A stretch of 33,437 nt of DNA from a virus: the IMG/VR virus record IMGVR_UViG_3300025872_000172, positions 1 to 33,437 of that record. One strand, written 5' to 3'. Below, piece by piece: positions 1,477 through 33,215 of the stretch. The stretch's first letter is position 1. Every line of letters starts with the position of its first letter. Position numbers and translations under genes: made by a program. The notes under the pieces are model-generated. The model was not told where the DNA came from, did not search any database, and saw only the letters and a list, made by a program, of their open reading frames with translations.

Positions 1477-1671
1477 TCACTTGTCGCGCAGTGTTTTCGG
1501 GCCTCCTGGCTTGATCCGGGGCCGCTTGGGCGCGGTTTTTGGCTTGGGTGGGTCAGTGTAGCCCTCGCCGGGCTTTTGTGCGTCCTGGGCCTTGCAAATA
1601 GCCCAGGCTTGGCTTTCGGTGTAGCCCTTGTCGATGAGTGCCTGCACGCAGGCGTCAAGCTGTTGTGGCAT
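1477..1671 (-). CDS. Small protein with a CxxAL...AWAIC motif
   Basis: Encodes 64 aa. The N-terminal half (MPQQLDACVQALIDKGYTES, then QAWAICKAQ) matches a short helical motif often seen at the start of small or structural phage proteins, where a Cys near the start is followed about 20 residues later by a second Cys in an A-x-A-I-C context. The C-terminal half is a basic Pro/Lys-rich tail (PPKPKTAPKRPRIKPGG), which could bind nucleic acid. The ATG at 1671 overlaps the upstream gene by 17 bp. Role unknown. Confidence 0.65.
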   Translation of the reverse strand: MPQQLDACVQALIDKGYTESQAWAICKAQDAQKPGEGYTDPPKPKTAPKRPRIKPGGPKTLRDK

Positions 1672-1939
1672 GGTGGTGTGGGTTGGAGGTGATGAGGTCG
1701 GTGATGGTTTGCGGGGTGTAGGTGCTGGCGCCGTTGATGAGGTCGTCGAGCAGGTTGATGTTTACCAGCAACACCTGGGCGAGCTGTTGGCGCGTGTCGC
1801 CTCGCATCCGGCGCGGGTCGGCCAGCATCCGGTTGAGGGTCGGGCGGGTGATGTCAAGCGCCTGCGCCACGGCTAGCTTGGTGAGGCCTCGGGCACGTAT
1901 GAGGCGCTCGAGAGTGTAGGTCATTTGTTGGGGTTTCAT
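1655..1939 (-). CDS. Small helix-turn-helix (XRE-like) regulator
   Basis: Encodes 94 aa from the ATG at 1939. A second ATG at 1924 (MTYTLERLI) is equally possible. Residues 6-65 fit a lambda-repressor/XRE-type fold: LERLIRARGLTKLAVAQALD, then ITRPTLNRMLADPRRMRGDTRQQLAQVLLVNINLL, with the turn at ALDITRPTLNRML. The rest is a short Thr/Asn/His tail. It overlaps the stop of the upstream gene (ATGA). It is one of the few candidates in the genome to bind the palindromes at the two early promoters. That role is inference. Confidence 0.72.
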   Translation of the reverse strand: MKPQQMTYTLERLIRARGLTKLAVAQALDITRPTLNRMLADPRRMRGDTRQQLAQVLLVNINLLDDLINGASTYTPQTITDLITSNPHHHATTA

Positions 1940-3825: not shown

Positions 3826-4104
3826 TTATGCGTGTAGGTTGGTTTCGATGTACTTGATGACCTCGGCGTCGATTTCGGCGCGGTAGGGTGCCAGGTCGGC
3901 GGTGCAAATATAATTTCCTGCAAGGTTTTGGGCGCTCTCAATTACATAGCACCAGCTCAGCACGGTGTCGCACGTCGGCATGCCGGTCGGTGGTGCCCAG
4001 TCAGCTGAGCGGGTCACGTCCCAGGTGAGGTTGGCCTGCACCCACACCGCGCCGGTGGCGGTGTGGATGACCAGGCTGATGGCTTCAGAAGGGCGCTGTT
4101 TCAT
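3826..4104 (-). CDS. Hypothetical 92-aa early protein
   Basis: The ATG at 4104 sits 20 bp inside the end of the ERF-like gene, and the stop is 2 bp before the next start. It carries three Cys (CDTVLSWCYVIE, ICTADL) and several Trp. There is no signal peptide, membrane segment or motif I know. Function unknown; its tight packing in the operon supports it as a gene. Confidence 0.62.
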   Translation of the reverse strand: MKQRPSEAISLVIHTATGAVWVQANLTWDVTRSADWAPPTGMPTCDTVLSWCYVIESAQNLAGNYICTADLAPYRAEIDAEVIKYIETNLHA

Positions 4105-4840
4105 GGTCGGCGGCTTGGCGGTTTTGTTGGTCGATGATGTCCATGTGAGCAGCGTCGGCGCGGTCTTGGCGCTCGTTGAGGGTCACCAGGTCGGTCTTGT
4201 TGACCCGGTACTTGCGCAGGATGTCGGCGACCTTGCCACCGGCGTCGATGTACTCCAGCGCCTTGGCGCCCTCCGGTGTGGTGCCGCCGTTTTTGGCGGT
4301 AAGGTTGAGCCATGGCAGGCCGGCCTTGGTTTCAGCTGCCGGGTTGGGGCGCACCGGTGCCGGTGTGGTGGCGGCTGGTTGGTAGGTCATGTGATCGGCA
4401 CCGCTGGCGTCGCTGTCCTCGTCGCTTGGCAGGGCCAGGATAGCAGCGGCAGCGTAGCGGCGCAGGTAGCTGAGGCCGCCGCCCATTTTCATGAGGTTAT
4501 TGACTTGGCCGCCCTCCCATGCCACGTAGTGCAGCTTGGAGGCGATAAATTGACCGGAGCGGTGCACGATGCGGGTGACCACGCTGTCGCCTGCCAGGTG
4601 CTGCTCCATGAAGCAGCCGCAGGCGGCAAGGGCGGGGCGCACGGCTGTGAGGATGTCGTCAAGCAGCATGTACTTGCGCTTGACCTGGGCGGTGATGCTG
4701 GCGGTGCCGTTTTTGGGCACTGCGATGCCGGAGCCGTGGAACTGCACCAGGGCGGCGTTGATCTCGTTGGTGTCGGCGCTTGTCCAGAAGCTGTCGGTGT
4801 GCCAGGTGATGGCGGGGGTGGGGGTGGGGGTGGTTTCCAT
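4085..4840 (-). CDS. erf: ERF-family single-strand annealing protein
   Basis: Encodes 251 aa. The ERF family binds single-stranded DNA ends and anneals complementary strands, supporting phage recombination and genome circularisation. Diagnostic blocks: TNEINAALVQFHGSG (24-38), a YMLLDDILTAVRPALAACG region (57-75), VVTRIVHRSGQFI (87-99), and the family signature GGGLSYLRRYAAAAILAL (120-137) followed by acidic PSDEDSDASG. The C-terminal 100 residues are a Pro/Ala linker and a helical tail. It stands near the head of the early operon, upstream of the replication genes. The ATG at 4840 follows an A/C-rich leader without a Shine-Dalgarno. Confidence 0.88.
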   Translation of the reverse strand: METTPTPTPAITWHTDSFWTSADTNEINAALVQFHGSGIAVPKNGTASITAQVKRKYMLLDDILTAVRPALAACGCFMEQHLAGDSVVTRIVHRSGQFIASKLHYVAWEGGQVNNLMKMGGGLSYLRRYAAAAILALPSDEDSDASGADHMTYQPAATTPAPVRPNPAAETKAGLPWLNLTAKNGGTTPEGAKALEYIDAGGKVADILRKYRVNKTDLVTLNERQDRADAAHMDIIDQQNRQAADHETAPF

Positions 4841-4867
4841 GTATGTGTTGGGGTTGATAGTGTGCGA

Positions 4868-5059
4868 TTAGTTTTGAACTGCGCCACGGCGGCGCAGCTC
4901 CATGTGGCAGTAGTGTACCTCGTCCATGTAGTAGCCGGCGTTGACGCCGTTGGGCATGGCTTGGATGGCCTCGCGGGCGTCCTTAATAATGTAGCGCAGG
5001 GTTTCGATGTCCATTGAGCGGGTGCGCTTCATGTAGTCGGTGTGGTTCATTGTTTTCAT
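4868..5059 (-). CDS. Small protein, first gene of the main early operon
   Basis: Encodes 63 aa from the ATG at 5059 (MKTMNHTDYMKR); a second ATG at 5050 is possible. The longer open frame upstream is unlikely, because it would run back through the promoter at 5080-5140. Residues 15-55 look helical and acidic/basic mixed (DIETLRYIIKDAREAIQAM, YYMDEVHYCHMELRRRG). The predicted transcription start is about 24 nt upstream. No family recognised. Confidence 0.7.
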   Translation of the reverse strand: MKTMNHTDYMKRTRSMDIETLRYIIKDAREAIQAMPNGVNAGYYMDEVHYCHMELRRRGAVQN

Positions 5060-5079
5060 GGTGCTGGTCTTTTGTGTGG

Positions 5080-5140
5080 TTGACGGGGTCAAAGATATAC
5101 ACAAATGTACACGCGGCAAGTATTTTTTACACCTGCCGCG
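5080..5140 (-). promoter_or_regulatory. Bacteroidota-type early promoter P2 with two inverted repeats
   Basis: On the minus strand TTG (complement of 5117-5119), a 19-bp spacer and TATCTTTG (complement of 5090-5097) match the Bacteroidota sigma consensus (TTG near -33, TAnnTTTG near -7) exactly. One inverted repeat covers the -33 region (5112-5140, perfect 7-bp outer arms CGCGGCA/TGCCGCG). A second (TTGAC-3-GTCAA, 5080-5092) overlaps the -7 end and start point. Both are shared with the promoter at 6724-6781, so the two are probably controlled together. Confidence 0.8.
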
Positions 5141-5170
5141 CTAACTTGCTGATTTTGTAGGCATTTATTT

Positions 5171-5581
5171 TTACTCAGCATGCAGCCACGGGCCGACTGG
5201 TCGCACCTTCAGCGCACCAGGTGACCGCTCCAGCTCGTATAGCCCGTCACCGTCTTGAGCGCAAAGCCACAGCACCGCACCGGCTACATTCAGCGGCTCC
5301 TTGCTGTCGATCTCGACCGCCAAGGTGTCGGCATCGGCAAGGATCGCCTCGATGACCCGCAGGCGTGGCAGCAGCGCCGGAGCCGGTTGCGGGTCGATGC
5401 TCACCTGCACCGCCTCCCTGCGCCAGTCCACCAAAAAGCCCAGCCGCTCTAGCCGGCTCAAGTCCAGCAGCACGTCGGCCACGCTGGCGCTGGTGTCGTG
5501 GGCGATCTCTTGAAGGCGCCGGGGTGTGTCCTTGAGCAGGCGCACGATGCGCCGCAGGCGTTGCAGGTCGGTGATGGCCAT
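5171..5581 (-). CDS. Winged-helix-like regulator between the two early promoters
   Basis: Encodes 136 aa from the ATG at 5581 (MAITDLQRLRRI). An in-frame TTG at 5602 is an alternative start. Residues 1-60 suit a MarR/LexA-like winged helix: LRRIVRLLKDTPRRLQEIAH, SASVADVLLDLSRLERLGFL, then a two-strand wing (VDWRREAVQVSID). The C-terminal half (about 65-136) is a small alpha/beta region (LLPRLRVIEAILADADTLAV, GAVLWLCAQDGDGLYELE). No signal peptide. It sits alone between a terminator and promoter P2, the place where a regulator of the early promoters would be expected. That target is inference. Confidence 0.7.
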   Translation of the reverse strand: MAITDLQRLRRIVRLLKDTPRRLQEIAHDTSASVADVLLDLSRLERLGFLVDWRREAVQVSIDPQPAPALLPRLRVIEAILADADTLAVEIDSKEPLNVAGAVLWLCAQDGDGLYELERSPGALKVRPVGPWLHAE

Positions 5582-5639
5582 GGTGGCACCAAGGTAGGCC
5601 AAAAAGTGCAGCAGCGGCCACCGTTGCAGCTTTGTGCGC

Positions 5640-5678
5640 TTGCAGGTGTGGCGCCCGTTGCCTACCTTTGCCGGTAGG
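5640..5678 (+). promoter_or_regulatory. Possible plus-strand promoter with an operator-like inverted repeat
   Basis: TTG at 5640-5642, a 20-bp spacer and TACCTTTG at 5663-5670 fit the Bacteroidota consensus and point rightward, against all genes here. The -7 box lies inside a perfect inverted repeat (CCTACC 5661-5666, GGTAGG 5673-5678). A terminator follows about 30 bp downstream, so any transcript would be about 60 nt and non-coding. The 5582-5753 gap holds this site, the terminator and no other gene I can support. Confidence 0.4.
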
Positions 5679-5703
5679 TTTTGGATTCCATTGTGTTCAT
5701 TGA

Positions 5704-5740
5704 CGAAAAAGGGCGGCCCATTGGTCGCCCTTTTCGTTTT
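5704..5740. terminator. Bidirectional intrinsic terminator
   Basis: A 9-bp perfect stem (AAAAGGGCG 5707-5715, CGCCCTTTT 5726-5734) with a 10-nt loop. There are T-rich tails in both directions: TTTTCGTTTT on plus, and a T5 run on minus as part of the stem. It ends leftward transcription of the gene at 5754-5966, and would also end any transcript from the plus-strand promoter at 5640-5670. Confidence 0.8.
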
Positions 5741-5753
5741 CAGCCCTGCCGGC

Positions 5754-5966
5754 TCAGCCCTGGCAGGTCATGGCATGCACGTGCATCGCATCGCGTACAC
5801 GATCGCGCACGCAGTACAGCTCGTCCATGGTGAGGCGCGGGCCGATTAGCATGGGGTTGCTGACCTTGATGCAGTCAGCCATGCGCGTGGCGCGGTAGCT
5901 GAGCTCGTACACGTTGCCATAAAGGTGCACGGTGGTCTTTTGGATGGTGCTGGTGTTGGTTTCCAT
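5754..5966 (-). CDS. Hypothetical 70-aa early protein (METNT start)
   Basis: The start is the ATG at 5966. The 22 bp around it (5952-5973) are identical to those around the start of the next gene upstream (6373-6394), which supports this choice over the in-frame codon at 6014. The sequence has a beta-like N-terminal part (TTVHLYGNVYELSYRATRMA) and a helical acidic/basic end (TMDELYCVRDRVRDAMHVHA). A terminator follows. Family unknown. Confidence 0.65.
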   Translation of the reverse strand: METNTSTIQKTTVHLYGNVYELSYRATRMADCIKVSNPMLIGPRLTMDELYCVRDRVRDAMHVHAMTCQG

Positions 5967-6003
5967 GGGTGTGTGGTTGTTGGGTTTTGGGGTTGGTGTT
6001 GGT

Positions 6004-6387
6004 TTATAGTTCAAGGGTGTCGTTGGCTACATGCAGCCGGGTGATGCGCACGCCCTCATAAAAGTGGGCGAAGGCGTCAAGGCTCTCGCCTGGGTTGCGG
6101 GCACGTATGCGCCACTCGACCTGCTCATGCTCGTCAAGCGGGCCGGTGAGCTTGCCGATATAGATGCAAAAGGTGTAGGGCACGCCCTCCTCGTAGTAGC
6201 CGAAGCCGGTGTCGTACCTATCCTCCTCGCGGCGGTTTTCGGTCCACTCGTAGGCAACGTCGGCGCCAGGCTTGAGGTTGATGTAGTTGGGCTGGTCGAA
6301 CCAGTAGGTGAGCTCCCAGAGGCTGGCTTTGATAGTGTGACCAAAAAAGCAGCCGCGATACTCGTAAGGTGTGGTGTTGGTTTCCAT
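6004..6387 (-). CDS. Hypothetical 127-aa early protein (METNT start)
   Basis: The ATG at 6387 follows an ACC-repeat leader without a Shine-Dalgarno. The protein is acidic and aromatic-rich (LWELTYWFDQPNYINLKPG, YDTGFGYYEEGVPYTFCIYI). No membrane segment or known motif is visible. It lies downstream of a strong terminator, and I see no clear promoter in the 51-bp gap. It may depend on read-through. Function unknown. Confidence 0.68.
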   Translation of the reverse strand: METNTTPYEYRGCFFGHTIKASLWELTYWFDQPNYINLKPGADVAYEWTENRREEDRYDTGFGYYEEGVPYTFCIYIGKLTGPLDEHEQVEWRIRARNPGESLDAFAHFYEGVRITRLHVANDTLEL

Positions 6388-6420
6388 GGGTGTGGTGTGG
6401 TGTGGTGGTTTTGGTTGATC

Positions 6421-6458
6421 ATTAAAAACGTCGCGGGCTTACTTGAGCCCGTGACGTT
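6421..6458 (-). terminator. Strong intrinsic terminator overlapping a stop codon
   Basis: On the minus strand a 13-bp stem (arms 6446-6458 and 6427-6439, with one G-U pair) encloses a 6-nt loop and is followed by a T-rich tail (TTTAAT after the last TT of the stem). The TAA stop of the gene at 6439-6696 lies at the loop and inner edge of the stem. Together with the promoter at 6724-6781 this makes that gene a one-gene transcript, unless read-through occurs. Confidence 0.8.
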
Positions 6459-6696
6459 GTGCGAAGGCCTTGGTGCTGGCCCAGCTGTTCCAGTCAGTGT
6501 GCAGCGCCACGCTGATGGCCTGCTCAATGGTGAGGCCTTTGAAGCGCACACCGTAGTTGAACACTGAGCAGCTGCCCGCGTACACGGTCGCCATGTACTC
6601 AGCATAGCGCTCATTCATGTAGTCGGCGGGACCGCTAACTACACCGTTAGAAATTGAGAAGGCCAGATCGGCGGAGGGGTTGAAGGTCGTGCTCAT
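6439..6696 (-). CDS. Hypothetical 85-aa protein, single-gene early transcript
   Basis: The ATG at 6696 lies about 30 nt after the predicted start of promoter P1. The protein has no known motif. It contains a polar N-terminus (MSTTFNPSADLAFSISNGVV), an aromatic middle (YMNERYAEYMATVYAGSCSV) and a helical end (LTIEQAISVALHTDWNSWAS). It is bracketed by a strong promoter and a strong terminator, an arrangement that suggests high, separately controlled expression of a small early protein, for example a host-takeover or regulatory factor. The role is inference. Confidence 0.7.
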   Translation of the reverse strand: MSTTFNPSADLAFSISNGVVSGPADYMNERYAEYMATVYAGSCSVFNYGVRFKGLTIEQAISVALHTDWNSWASTKAFAQRHGLK

Positions 6697-6723
6697 GGCG
6701 CGGGGTTTAGGGGTTTTGTGTGC

Positions 6724-6781
6724 TTGACGAGGTCAAAGATATACACAAAAACGCACCCCGCAAGTATTTTTTACACTTGCA
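6724..6781 (-). promoter_or_regulatory. Bacteroidota-type early promoter P1 with two inverted repeats
   Basis: TTG (complement of 6761-6763), a 19-bp spacer and TATCTTTG (complement of 6734-6741) match the Bacteroidota consensus exactly. The inverted repeat GCAAGT (6760-6765)/ACTTGC (6775-6780) covers the -33 region, and TTGAC-GAG-GTCAA (6724-6736) covers the start point. The same two repeats in the same positions occur at P2. The rest of the 6697-6825 gap, between the single-gene transcript and the late region, holds no gene I can support. Confidence 0.8.
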
Positions 6782-6825
6782 CGCGTAACTGATTGAAAAA
6801 CAGCACTAAAAAATTATTGCATCCC

Positions 6826-7155
6826 CTAGTTTTCGGGCATGTAGGTGTGAAAAGCCAGCAGCTTGGTCATGTGCTGCGCAGCGTCAAGCTCATGCTGGTG
6901 CCGGATCGCGATTTCGTCGCGTAGCCGCTTCTCTTGCAGCAGGTACTCCAGCTCCCAGCCCTGCGCCTGGTCGCTCCAGGCTTTGGGGCCGATGACCCGC
7001 ACCAGGGTGCCGTAGATGTGCGCAGCCTGGTCAAGGTTGCCGGAGCGCTCAGCAGCTTGCGCCATGGCCTCAAGGGCGCCGGTTAAGGCCGCAGCGGTTT
7101 CGCCGGCACGTTGTACGTCGTACCAGCGCCCGCCCTTCAGTAGTTCGTCGTCCAT
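6826..7155 (-). CDS. Hypothetical 109-aa helical protein, end of the late region
   Basis: The ATG at 7155 follows the stop of a 19-residue micro-ORF by one base. The protein is almost entirely helical (ETAAALTGALEAMAQAAERS, then LDQAAHIYGTLVRVIG, with a long charged helix around EYLLQEKRLRDEIAIRHQHE). No membrane segment or catalytic motif. It is the last gene of the leftward late region. Function unknown. Confidence 0.68.
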   Translation of the reverse strand: MDDELLKGGRWYDVQRAGETAAALTGALEAMAQAAERSGNLDQAAHIYGTLVRVIGPKAWSDQAQGWELEYLLQEKRLRDEIAIRHQHELDAAQHMTKLLAFHTYMPEN

Positions 7156-7156
7156 T

Positions 7157-7216
7157 TTAATAGCCGCGGCGGTAGTACCACCACCACCACAAAGGTAGGA
7201 GAATGACTAGCTTCAT
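7157..7216 (-). CDS. 19-residue Trp-rich hydrophobic micro-ORF
   Basis: Encodes MKLVILLPLWWWWYYRRGY. Its ATG overlaps the TGA of the upstream gene (ATGA), and its TAA ends one base before the ATG of the next gene, so it exactly fills the space between them. The pattern is a short hydrophobic segment, four Trp, two Tyr and a basic end, as in membrane-interface micropeptides. The Trp run comes from four TGG codons in a row, so chance low complexity must be considered. I give it moderate weight because of the perfect coupling on both sides. Confidence 0.5.
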   Translation of the reverse strand: MKLVILLPLWWWWYYRRGY

Positions 7217-7464
7217 GAGTTGCTTGGGTTTGATGTGTATAGGGTCGCCACGTACACCTCGGCGGCCTTTTCGCTGCCGTCGTTGGTCTTGGCGTGGCCG
7301 GCTCGGTAGATGCGCTCAAGCTCCCACCGCTCAGCCACCAGCTTGAGCTCGGCCTGCTCGATGGCCATGCGCAGCCCGTGGATCATGTCGGGCGTCAGCA
7401 GGCTCACCAGGTCGGTCATGGCTTGCAGTTCACGTATGAGCTGCGCGATCGGTGTGCGCTTCAT
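7213..7464 (-). CDS. Hypothetical 83-aa helical protein
   Basis: The ATG at 7464 overlaps the upstream TGA by 4 bp, fixing the start (MKRTPIAQLIRELQ). The protein is largely helical: AMTDLVSLLTPDMIHGLRMA, EQAELKLVAERWELERIY, then a polar tail (KTNDGSEKAAEVYVATLYTS). No signal peptide or membrane segment. Its stop overlaps the micro-ORF. Function unknown. Confidence 0.68.
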   Translation of the reverse strand: MKRTPIAQLIRELQAMTDLVSLLTPDMIHGLRMAIEQAELKLVAERWELERIYRAGHAKTNDGSEKAAEVYVATLYTSNPSNS

Positions 7465-7697
7465 GGTGTGATTGCTTGCGCGAGCTCGGCCAGCTTGTCG
7501 GCCAGGCGGTAGATGCCGTCGCGGGTGCTGAAGGTCCACGCCTCGGTGGCTAGCGTGTAGGTGGTGTCGGTGCCGACGGTGTGCGCCGTCAGCTGCATGC
7601 GCTGGTTTTGCTCCCAGGGCATCGGGTCGGGTTGCTCGATGGTGCAGGTGGCGAGCTGCTCGACTACCTGCGGGGTGGTGGTTTCGGTGGTGTCCAT
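7461..7697 (-). CDS. Hypothetical 78-aa protein behind a terminator
   Basis: The start is the ATG at 7697 (MDTTETTTPQVVEQL); the open frame upstream runs through the terminator and is shadow. The 78-aa protein is acidic and Thr-rich, with a beta-like middle (QRMQLTAHTVGTDTTYTLAT) and a helical end (LADKLAELAQAITP). The ATG is only about 12 nt past the T-run of the lysis-operon terminator, so expression probably depends on read-through or an unseen promoter. Function unknown. Confidence 0.65.
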   Translation of the reverse strand: MDTTETTTPQVVEQLATCTIEQPDPMPWEQNQRMQLTAHTVGTDTTYTLATEAWTFSTRDGIYRLADKLAELAQAITP

Positions 7698-7708
7698 GCG
7701 GTAAAAAT

Positions 7709-7738
7709 AAAAAAAAAGGCGAGCACCCGGTGCCCGCC
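7709..7738 (-). terminator. Intrinsic terminator after the lysis cassette
   Basis: On the minus strand a 9-bp stem with one mismatch (arms 7730-7738 and 7718-7726) and a 3-nt loop is followed by nine T (7709-7717), then ATTTTTA. It ends the large structural and lysis operon just after the 32-aa TM peptide. Confidence 0.85.
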
Positions 7739-7771
7739 CCAAAGTAGCCCGCAAAGGCCACGCTGCGCCCT

Positions 7772-7870
7772 TCAGCGCCAAAAGATAGCCAAGGCCACCA
7801 GGCAGGCTATGGCCAGCCCCATGCACACCTCGACCATGTACATGGCCAGCCAGTGCATCCGGCGCCTCAT
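7772..7870 (-). CDS. 32-residue membrane micropeptide of the lysis cassette
   Basis: Reads MRRRMHWLAMYMVEVCMGLA followed by IACLVALAIFWR. The basic start and about 20 hydrophobic residues make one membrane segment. Its ATG overlaps the TGA of the holin-like gene (ATGA), and the cassette terminator follows 34 bp after its stop. Position and topology suggest a small holin, antiholin or lysis modulator. That is inference, and no family is recognised. It is too short for most gene callers. Confidence 0.6.
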   Translation of the reverse strand: MRRRMHWLAMYMVEVCMGLAIACLVALAIFWR

Positions 7871-8070
7871 TCGGCTGTCGTGAAGGCGTTGGTGATCGCC
7901 TTGCCGGCAGCGCCCACAATTATGAAGGCCACCGCCAGCCACTTGTCGTCGGCCACCACCGTGAACACGGCAGCGGAGGCGCTCACGTAGTTGAGGAAGT
8001 CGCCCACCATGCGCAGCACTGGCGCGGTCGGTTGGGTATAGTAGCTTGTTTTCAGTTTCAGCTTTGTCAT
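7867..8070 (-). CDS. Holin-like small membrane protein
   Basis: The 67-aa start (ATG 8070, MTKLKLKTSYYTQP) overlaps the TGA of the endopeptidase gene by 4 bp. Residues 21-45 and 47-62 are hydrophobic (MVGDFLNYVSASAAVFTVVA; WLAVAFIIVGAAGKAITNAF), separated by a polar DDK turn, which fits a two-TM holin hairpin. Holins open the inner membrane to release the lysozyme. The order XhlA-like, M15, holin-like, TM peptide is a typical lysis cassette. The fold is inferred from hydropathy only. Confidence 0.7.
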   Translation of the reverse strand: MTKLKLKTSYYTQPTAPVLRMVGDFLNYVSASAAVFTVVADDKWLAVAFIIVGAAGKAITNAFTTAE

Positions 8071-29620: not shown

Positions 29621-29927
29621 GGGCTTGGCGTTTAAGGTTTTGGATGCGGTCAAGGGTTTCCTGGGTGGTGGTTTCGATGTTGTCGAGGCTGTCGCTGAGC
29701 AAAAATACGCGCTTGCGAAACAAGTCCATGCTGCGCTTGTAGTCGTCGCGCTCAAGGGTGAGCTGGTCGATTTCCTCTTGCAGCACGTTGGTGATGCCGG
29801 TGCCCTCCGGGTCGGTTTCGGGCGGGTCGGTGTGGCCGATTAACCACACCAGGGCGACGGTGGCGGCGATGGCGATGAGGCCGATGACCACCAAGGTGCG
29901 CCCGTAGGGGGTGAGCTTTGCGTTCAT
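29526..29927 (-). CDS. i-spanin-like membrane coiled-coil protein
   Basis: Encodes 133 aa. Residues 10-31 form one membrane segment (TLVVIGLIAIAATVALVWLI); the rest is a periplasmic coiled coil (LQEEIDQLTLERDDYKRSMD, FLLSDSLDNIETTTQETLDR). This is the outline of an Rz-type i-spanin, which joins inner and outer membranes in lysis with the overlapping downstream partner. It lies directly after the large terminase rather than beside the endolysin. Function inferred from topology and overlap. Confidence 0.62.
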   Translation of the reverse strand: MNAKLTPYGRTLVVIGLIAIAATVALVWLIGHTDPPETDPEGTGITNVLQEEIDQLTLERDDYKRSMDLFRKRVFLLSDSLDNIETTTQETLDRIQNLKRQAHEAAARDYRRYTDADIERLLSDRYTTDTLGQ

Positions 29928-29948
29928 GCGGTCAAAAATAATGTGTTT

Positions 29949-31121: not shown

Positions 31122-31573
31122 AGCTGATCGATGGCTCCGGTGATGTCGCTATCGGTGGTCACCACCCGGATGGCGATGGGGTTGCCGGCGCCGCTTATTT
31201 CGGTGCGCTCGATGTAGCCCCGCGCCTTGCCCTTGGTTTTGAGGTAGAAGATGGTGCAGGCGTCGGAGCCCTCGGCGATGCGCTGGTGCAGCTTGCTCTC
31301 GGCGAAGTCGAGCGCCACGCCTTGCAGCTCGTCGTACTTGGCCCTGAAGTCGGGGTCGTTTTTGAGCCAGCTGTACACGGTGCTGCGCTCGATGCCGAGC
31401 TTGCGGCAGGCGGTGGTCACCACGCCCAGGGTGCTCTCGAGGGCCTCCAGCAGGCGCTGCTTGCGGATTTCGGTGGCCAGCGGTTGGGTGCGCTCCTCGG
31501 TGCGCTCGACCGGCAGGGCTTGCACCTCGGCGGGTTTTTTATTGCGTTTTATTTTGTCCACGGTTTTGGTCAT
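31118..31573 (-). CDS. terS: Terminase small subunit (HTH)
   Basis: Encodes 151 aa. After a charged N-terminus (about 1-35), residues 36-75 hold a homeodomain-like helix-turn-helix (RLLEALESTLGVVTTACRKL, GIERSTVYSWLKNDPDFRAK), then a helical oligomerisation region with the family block FAESKLHQRIAEG and ACTIFYLKTKGKARGYIER. It recognises the packaging site and feeds DNA to the large subunit. The ATG at 31573 overlaps the upstream TGA; the stop overlaps the large-subunit GTG. Confidence 0.9.
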   Translation of the reverse strand: MTKTVDKIKRNKKPAEVQALPVERTEERTQPLATEIRKQRLLEALESTLGVVTTACRKLGIERSTVYSWLKNDPDFRAKYDELQGVALDFAESKLHQRIAEGSDACTIFYLKTKGKARGYIERTEISGAGNPIAIRVVTTDSDITGAIDQL

Positions 31574-32865
31574 GGCTTGGGCTCCTGCTCATGGGTGTAG
31601 GGCTTCCCGTTTTTTGTGATGGTAAGGGTGGGGTCGAGCTTCAGCATGCGGTCGAGAATGACCTGGCAGTACTGTGGGTCAAGCTCGATGCCGTAGCACT
31701 GGCGATTTAATTGGTGGCAAGCTACCATGGTACTGCCGGATCCGAGAAAAGGGTCAAGGACTAAGCTGCCCATTTTGCTGCTGTTTTTTATAAGTGGAGC
31801 TAGGAGCAAAATTGGCTTCATGGTTGGGTGCTCCTTGTTTGCGCTCGGTTTGTTCGCACGAAGTACGGTTGTAGGTATTTTTTGTGCAAAGATTTTTTCT
31901 AGCAAAGTTTTCATTTCGTCCTTGGTCATTTTTTTTATGTCGATGACGTCCTCGATGACCGTGCTTTTTGTTCGCTCCTCAGTAAAGTAGTGTGCTGCAC
32001 CTTCTTTCCACCCGTATAGGCATGATTCGTGCTGCCACTGATAATCCTGGCGTCCCATAACAAAGCTATTTTTTACCCATACCAAGCACTGCTTCAAAAG
32101 CAAGCCGGATTTATTAAATTGATTTCTGAATTGCGTTTCAGGGGAGCCCGGCGGGCTCCACACGTATAAAGCACCGCCTGGTTTTAGGTTTTGTTTAGCG
32201 TTGTTAAAAAAGTCCAAAAGAAAAGTATCAAAGTTTTCGTCGCTTTGTTTGTCATTCATAATTTTAAGTCCGGTGCCACCCTCATAGTTGACGTTATAGG
32301 GCGGGTCGGTCATAACTAGGTCGGCGTTTTTACTGTCCATTATTTTTTCCCAGTCCTGCGCTTTTGTGCTATCGCCACAAAGCAGGCGATGTGTGCCGAT
32401 GACAAAAAGGTCGCCGGCTTTGATGTCGGTTTTTATTTCCTCGGGTATCTCATAGCCGTCCTCTTGTGTTTCGGGTTCCTTTTCAATTATTTCCGGCAGG
32501 TCAAGGCCCCACTCCACCAGCTCGGTGGTGTCCCACTCGTTGGCCAGCAGCTCCCAATCCCACTCGCCGAAGCCCACGTTGTCCTTGATGATAAACTCGC
32601 GCTCCTGGTCGGCGCTGAGCCCTTCAGCCCGCACCACGGGCACCTGCTTGAGGCCTGCGGCCTTGCAGGCTTGCAGGCGCATGTTTCCACCCAGCACGGT
32701 GCCGGCGGCGTTGACCACGATGGGGCGCAGCTCCAGCATCCATGGCGCGTCCTTGATGCTTTGGGTGAGCTGCTTAAACTTGGGCTCGCGTATGAGGCGC
32801 GGGTTGGTGGGGTTGGGGTGGATGGTGTCGATGTCCACCCAGGTCGGTGTTGGTGCTGGTTTCAT
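31570..32865 (-). CDS. ParB-like domain fused to a beta-class DNA methyltransferase
   Basis: Encodes 431 aa from the ATG at 32865, overlapping the TGA of the DUF1064 gene. Residues 1-120 are ParB/sulfiredoxin-like (IHPNPTNPRLIREPKFKQL, GGNMRLQACKAAG at 59-71). Residues 150-400 are the methyltransferase: DPPY at 187-190 (motif IV) comes before DPFLGSGS at 371-378 (motif I) and GIELDP; this order is that of beta-class N6-adenine/N4-cytosine enzymes. It probably protects or marks phage DNA before packaging. The segment 31801-32400 is about 44% GC by hand count against about 60% elsewhere, so the catalytic part seems recently acquired. No partner nuclease of a restriction system is seen. Confidence 0.9.
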   Translation of the reverse strand: MKPAPTPTWVDIDTIHPNPTNPRLIREPKFKQLTQSIKDAPWMLELRPIVVNAAGTVLGGNMRLQACKAAGLKQVPVVRAEGLSADQEREFIIKDNVGFGEWDWELLANEWDTTELVEWGLDLPEIIEKEPETQEDGYEIPEEIKTDIKAGDLFVIGTHRLLCGDSTKAQDWEKIMDSKNADLVMTDPPYNVNYEGGTGLKIMNDKQSDENFDTFLLDFFNNAKQNLKPGGALYVWSPPGSPETQFRNQFNKSGLLLKQCLVWVKNSFVMGRQDYQWQHESCLYGWKEGAAHYFTEERTKSTVIEDVIDIKKMTKDEMKTLLEKIFAQKIPTTVLRANKPSANKEHPTMKPILLLAPLIKNSSKMGSLVLDPFLGSGSTMVACHQLNRQCYGIELDPQYCQVILDRMLKLDPTLTITKNGKPYTHEQEPKP

Positions 32866-33215
32866 GCGGTTTTGATTTCGATGCCATGGCAGGCGGCCAT
32901 GAGCTTGCGCTTGATTGTAAACAGCTGACCGGCGGGGGTGCTCTTGCCCTTGGCCAGCAGGTACGGGTTTTTGAAGTCCACCACCTCGCGGCGCCCGTCG
33001 GCATAGGTCACCACGAAGTCGGCGCGGTAGGTGGTGATGAGCTGGCCGGCGACCTCCAGCCGGTAGCTCACCTGCCGGTCGATGTCCACCACCCGGTGCT
33101 CCGGGTCGGTGGCTTGGCGCAGCAGGTTGAGCTTGACCCAATGGCGGTACTCGCCCAGGCTGTCGAAGCTGCCCTCGGCGGTGCGCACCTTATTGCTGTT
33201 GTACTTGGTCGGCAT
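32862..33215 (-). CDS. DUF1064-like phage nuclease-type protein
   Basis: Encodes 117 aa from the ATG at 33215 (MPTKYNSNKV). The 10-codon extension upstream runs into the terminator and is unlikely. The layout (GSFDSLGEYRHWVKLNLLRQ with Glu22, YRADFVVTYADGRREVVDFK with Asp66, Asp80 and Lys82) is the PD-(D/E)xK-like pattern of DUF1064 proteins, small phage proteins related to nucleases or Holliday-junction resolvases. It lies upstream of the methylase and terminase genes, next to the packaging functions. Catalysis is inferred from the motif. Confidence 0.8.
   Translation of the reverse strand: MPTKYNSNKVRTAEGSFDSLGEYRHWVKLNLLRQATDPEHRVVDIDRQVSYRLEVAGQLITTYRADFVVTYADGRREVVDFKNPYLLAKGKSTPAGQLFTIKRKLMAACHGIEIKTA

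Follow-up and report, generated by a model that had tools for sequence, protein, structure and literature searches.

Twin sigma-ABfr-type promoters of a Bacteroidota-type phage: a probable hairpin-plus-promoter cassette in two copies

The described arrangements closest to the locus analysed here are the sigma-ABfr promoters of Bacteroidota, intrinsic terminators that adjoin or overlap the next promoter, and the Cro/C1 operators of temperate phages. The sigma-ABfr promoter is composed of a -7 box, TAnnTTTG (TAHHTTTG), and a -33 TTTG about 19 nt away, and in Flavobacterium transcription starts 4–5 nt after the -7 box (PMC6847099). An intrinsic terminator is marked by a stable stem-loop after a stop codon, with a U tract. 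Cro/C1 operators form a series of related sites beside a divergent repressor gene, and such sites are expected to be conserved along with their regulator.

The window comprised an entire IMG/VR virus record (33,437 bases), and its predicted genes were all located on the minus strand. It encodes a portal protein, terminase subunits, a head protease and a tape-measure protein, and also an ERF recombinase, a replication-O-like protein and a Cro/C1-type HTH protein. The single close relative was IMGVR_UViG_3300020044_009089 (G001; 33,085 bases), with 77–87% identity over the shared DNA. This sister record was permuted relative to the window, the two ends of which adjoin in G001, and its own ends repeat. 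Searches for further relatives with the ERF protein and the putative winged-helix protein returned G001 alone, a single-sequence search with the HTH protein matched no relatives, and the tail protein matched G001, a fragment of 8 kb and, weakly and in part, four other sequences. No DNA similar to positions 4000–8000 was found among public phages. The promoter type, as the only pointer to a host, suggests a Bacteroidota-type phage. A protein at 31570-33141 (minus strand) matched ParB-like proteins as well as DNA methyltransferases (PHROG 498, 67 and 8071).

The initial annotation had described P1 and P2 as twin promoters with a common TTG-N19 core, and both were confirmed on the minus strand (Table 1). 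The -7 box of each fitted TAnnTTTG, and the -33 box was CTTG with N19, which matched TTTG in three of four letters. The pattern TTG-N19-TAnnTTTG had two exact matches in the whole window, P1 and P2, against 0.13 expected, and GTGTAAAAAATACTTG was present in two exact copies against 0.10 expected. The ATG was located 30–37 nt past the -7 box, and the expected transcription start was 4–5 nt after this box by the Flavobacterium spacing (PMC6847099). The -7 box, the TTG at 19 nt, the ATG distance and the expected start were shared with the sigma-ABfr promoters, whereas the CTTG in place of TTTG, the hairpin over the -33 box, the location on a phage and the duplication were not. The consensus and the position support twin Bacteroidota-type promoters in front of the small-ORF/ERF/replication block, and both are probably active with the host primary sigma factor. 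A bidirectional promoter from a mirrored -7 box was rejected, as the opposite strand had no TAnnTTTG promoter at P1 or P2. Nothing specific on such phage promoters was found in the literature.

Table 1. Positions of the promoter elements, predicted hairpins, dyads and nearby or candidate regulatory genes in the window.
Feature	Position	Strand	Basis or remark
P2 promoter sequence	5119-5080	-	TTGCCGCGTGTACATTTGTGTATATCTTTGACCCCGTCAA
P2 promoter and leader, sigma-ABfr type	5060-5119	-	consensus match
P2 elements	-33 TTG 5119-5117; N19; -7 TATCTTTG 5097-5090	-	
P2 expected start and ATG	5085-5084; ATG at 5059	-	spacing from PMC6847099
Start-point dyad of P2	5080-5092	-	TTGACCCCGTCAA; left arm overlaps -7 TTTG
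Predicted RNA hairpin, P2 -33	5111-5141	-	GCGCGGCAGGUGU-AAAAA-AUACUUGCCGCGU; 13 pairs; z -5.25
63-aa ORF directly after P2	4868-5059	-	
Putative winged-helix protein, 136 aa, just upstream of P2	5171-5581	-	
P1 promoter sequence	6763-6724	-	TTGCGGGGTGCGTTTTTGTGTATATCTTTGACCTCGTCAA
P1 promoter, same as P2	6697-6763	-	consensus match
P1 elements	-33 TTG 6763-6761; -7 TATCTTTG 6741-6734	-	
P1 expected start and ATG	6729-6728; ATG at 6696	-	
Start-point dyad of P1	6724-6736	-	TTGACCTCGTCAA
Predicted RNA hairpin, P1 -33	6751-6786	-	z -2.4
85-aa ORF directly after P1	6439-6696	-	missing behind sister promoter in G001
109-aa ORF just upstream of P1	6826-7155	-	
Cro/C1-type HTH protein, candidate regulator	1655-1939	-	Pfam HTH_26 E 8.9e-06; HTH_3 E 1.2e-05

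When P1 and P2 were compared without gaps from the TTG, they were 80–82% identical from -20 to +52 and 28–32% identical well outside. The two promoters are copies of a single cassette, about 80 bp long, that has been duplicated. The earlier statement that they differ in flanking sequence therefore held outside this block but not inside it, where the core was alike to the extent given above. Because one cassette was duplicated, the palindromes of P1 and P2 are not independent, and their shared features are a single observation.

A hairpin-plus-promoter cassette, present in two copies between transcription units, is the explanation that we favour with moderate confidence. The hairpin with its AAAAA loop would end the transcript of the upstream gene as a terminator-like or 3'-end structure. 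The sigma-ABfr promoter, TTG-N19-TATCTTTG, would adjoin this hairpin with its -33 TTG inside the 3' arm, and the start/leader segment would be the third part, the start-point palindrome being largely the -7 TTTG facing the leader. Such a cassette would separate successive transcription units and restart transcription of the next small variable genes, and the hairpins probably act at the RNA level, through termination or 3'-end stability. The apparent two-operator circuit would then become something simpler and testable, a compact hairpin-plus-promoter cassette duplicated by the phage.

The repeat over the -33 box, earlier given as GCAAGT...ACTTGC, was a perfect 6+6 palindrome at P1, whereas P2 carried GCAGGT...ACTTGC with one departure. 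The P2 repeat extended outward to CGCGG...CCGCG. The P1 hairpin was composed of nine contiguous pairs (6781-6759) around an A5 loop and five more outer pairs, followed by UUUUGUG. Each hairpin was located shortly past a stop codon, about 29 nt after the putative winged-helix gene at P2 and about 40 nt after the 109-aa ORF at P1, and the 3' arm supplied the -33 TTG. A stable predicted stem-loop after a stop codon, with its 3' arm reaching into the -33 box, resembles an intrinsic terminator that overlaps the next promoter. However, the U tract was limited to UUUU past the extended P1 stem and was absent at P2, a terminator scan listed neither hairpin, and termination here is a prediction. In an unrelated 108-kb contig (G021), an identical 21-mer lay just past an ORF stop and preceded a T8 run, thus the same stem with a T tract, and its TTG again served as a promoter -33 box; this match may be partly coincidental. 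In G001, the sister P1 hairpin folded at z -2.67 with an AAAAA loop, and at the sister P2 both the hairpin and the -33 box were lost. The hairpin was not general over the -33 box across the promoter class (mean z -0.4) and was rejected as a trait of that class.

Departures from Watson–Crick symmetry were compared in the four intact copies, three of them related and one the unrelated G021 match. On the transcribed strand, all six were G.U pairs; read on the opposite strand, the same asymmetries would be A.C. The outermost pair was U.G, G-C, G-C and A-U in the four copies. Hairpin cells were paired in 84.4% of cases compared with 33–49% for slid versions, and letter shuffles of the pairs, with few counts, were not significant. 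On these few sequences, an RNA hairpin that ends the upstream gene is a better reading of the -33 palindrome than an operator. An operator formed by the -33 palindrome alone, bound by the conserved HTH protein and accompanied by an incidental start-point dyad, would agree with the core CAAGTGTAAAAAA..CTTG, which was intact at P1 of the two phages and almost intact at P2, and with the conservation of the HTH region. The wobble-only asymmetries on one strand, the loss of the palindrome at the sister P2 and the identical 21-mer in G021, where no relative of the HTH protein was found, make this operator unlikely.

By eye, another hairpin was seen at about 5712-5745 (minus strand), in the gap that separates the putative winged-helix gene from the ORF at 5754. 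This GC-rich structure with a T run, AAAAGGGCGACC...GGGCCGCCCTTTTT, looks like an ordinary intrinsic terminator.

The TTGAC-N3-GTCAA repeat previously noticed over the start point was present at both promoters, and these were its only exact copies in the window. In each, the left arm overlapped the TTTG of the -7 box. The right arm of the P2 dyad coincided with the expected 5' end of the transcript. When the -7 TTTG was fixed and the 24 downstream bases were shuffled, dyad arms of at least 5 appeared in 4.0–4.6% of trials. As about 4% of shuffles yield a dyad once the -7 box is given, the palindrome by itself exceeds chance only weakly. The plainest reading is that the -7 TTTG faces a conserved transcript start/leader, any dyad being weak at most. 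The dyad was missing at both G001 promoters, where the P1 region carried TACATTTG-CACCC-ATGG and the P2 region TATATTTTAGCACCC-ATGG. When up to two mismatches were allowed across the full G001 record, one two-mismatch site was found, away from the promoters.

The initial annotation had proposed one regulator on two sites per promoter, with the HTH protein and the putative winged-helix protein as candidates. The HTH label was borne out by its Pfam matches, and the protein was 84% identical in G001, with the HTH region almost unchanged. The winged-helix label was weakly favoured by a predicted H-H-H-E-E topology of modest mean pLDDT (68) but gained no Pfam or PDB support. A single-sequence Pfam scan of this protein gave no match at E<=0.01, and the Foldseek matches in the PDB, which included many winged-helix regulators, were all above E 0.1. 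The protein was 79% identical in G001. Binding of one of these proteins to both palindromes as a phage repressor or activator, perhaps cooperatively, would suit dyad centres about 41 bp apart, near four helical turns, and sites over the -33 box and the start would suit repression. The HTH domain is real, and both palindromes persist at P1 and P2 despite varied spacer letters. However, this retention counts once in duplicates, and the palindromes have no half-site in common, which makes recognition of both by one protein unlikely. G001 kept both candidate regulators without the start-point dyad, although an essential site would be expected to persist there, so that its necessity to either protein is doubtful. 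The all-G.U asymmetries of the -33 repeat also stand against an operator. Furthermore, the palindromes can be explained with no shared regulator, because the dyad mostly resembles the -7 box beside the start motif and the -33 repeat resembles an RNA hairpin. The single regulator is thus improbable and the two-operator circuit is not supported, and a dedicated repressor that reads the start-point dyad is probably absent.

When the locus was compared with the Cro/C1 operators of temperate phages, the repeats over the promoter and the Cro/C1-type HTH gene were alike. In contrast, the genes of the window all run one way with no divergent repressor beside the sites, the two repeats are unrelated rather than a related operator series, and the dyad was not conserved along with the HTH protein.

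The right arm of the dyad matched a transcript-start/leader motif (...TCAAAC...) at more than 200 other viral loci with varying spacing. The full dyad promoter pattern was found at 59 loci of viral contigs, many of them chance matches in coding sequence. About twenty of the 59 were promoter-like and ahead of an ATG in other phages, mostly in one group (TATCTTTGACTCAGTCAAACAAACAAAAACA) with about five others. The promoters of one of the phages (G013) carried TTTGAC-TT-GTCAAA, TTTGAC-CCA-GTCAAA and TTTGATG-A-CATCAAA; therefore, the dyad spacing is not fixed. A second search of viral contigs, in which no dyad was required, gave at least 120 matches to TAT[C/A]TTTG-N4..8-CAAACAAACA in each of two scans (loci L183-L410), with chance matches roughly estimated at below ten per scan. 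As a promoter/leader motif it is extremely frequent among viral contigs, and no description of it was found. Among the matches listed, the spacing ranged from 5 to 8, and an A was located exactly 4 nt past the -7 box in 33 of 47 cluster representatives, which is the start position known for Flavobacterium (PMC6847099). The form TAT[C/A]TTTG-N5..8-CAAACAAACA could help locate promoters of Bacteroidota-type phages.

A site near +1 for a factor common to many Bacteroidota phages or hosts would account for TTTGAC-N3-GTCAA, or the compensated TTTGATG-A-CATCAAA and TTTGTT-G-AACAAA, at the promoters of several phage groups. It would also account for the complementarity of the first and last inner bases, found in 65 of 103 promoters with a TTG and an ORF among the matches listed (45.2 expected by permutation). 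When stratified by -7 type with one promoter per upstream cluster, however, the count was 28 of 47 against 22.8, with p only ~0.03 after this control for relatedness and -7 type, and the spacing varied even inside one phage (G013). Across 396 Bacteroidota genomes, 3 matches to the dyad promoter pattern were obtained against 2 for the reversed control, and the -33 palindrome, with 3 mismatches allowed, occurred about as often as its control. In genome contigs, matches to the dyad promoter pattern were located mostly within ORFs. As neither element was enriched, a host regulon was rejected, and both are phage-side features. The site near +1 is accordingly very unlikely. The claim that a dyad near the start, made up of the -7 box and a mirror image of this box at the beginning of the transcript, is a deliberate regulatory site for a common factor in many unrelated Bacteroidota phages is given slightly less credence again. 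The extra GAC/GTC pairing of the dyad, which recurs at promoters of some six other groups of phages, counts against the cassette, as this recurrence exceeds what a bare TTTG/CAAA juxtaposition requires, and the -7 box and leader do not fully account for the exact GAC/GTC form.

A nearly invariant promoter of about 55 bases, GTTTGCGTAACGAAATAAGTTGCGTATCTTTGACTCAGTCAAACAAACAAAAACA, preceded different ORFs in many phage contigs (L021, L023, L040, L044, L047, L064, L066, L072 and others), as if the promoter cassette itself were mobile.

At 29923-29940 (minus strand), the ORF that ends at 29927 has a -7 box 5 nt ahead of its ATG (TATTTTTG-ACCGC-ATG), and a promoter here would give a leaderless mRNA. 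This 18-base string was identical in G001 (C1:23276-23293), and TAHHTTTG-N5-ATG occurred once in the window against 0.06 expected. In G001, the -7 boxes of the two promoters preceded an ATG by 5 and about 7 nt (C1 ~205-225, L004; L003 ~1220-1236), and these may be leaderless starts where the window has leaders of 30–37 nt. Two exact copies of ACCCATGGAAACC, a repeated start region, were located at gene starts in the window (5958-5970 and 6379-6391, minus strand), with a third copy at 4832-4844 (minus strand) that had two changes. The similar CACCCATGGAAAC was present at both promoters of G001.
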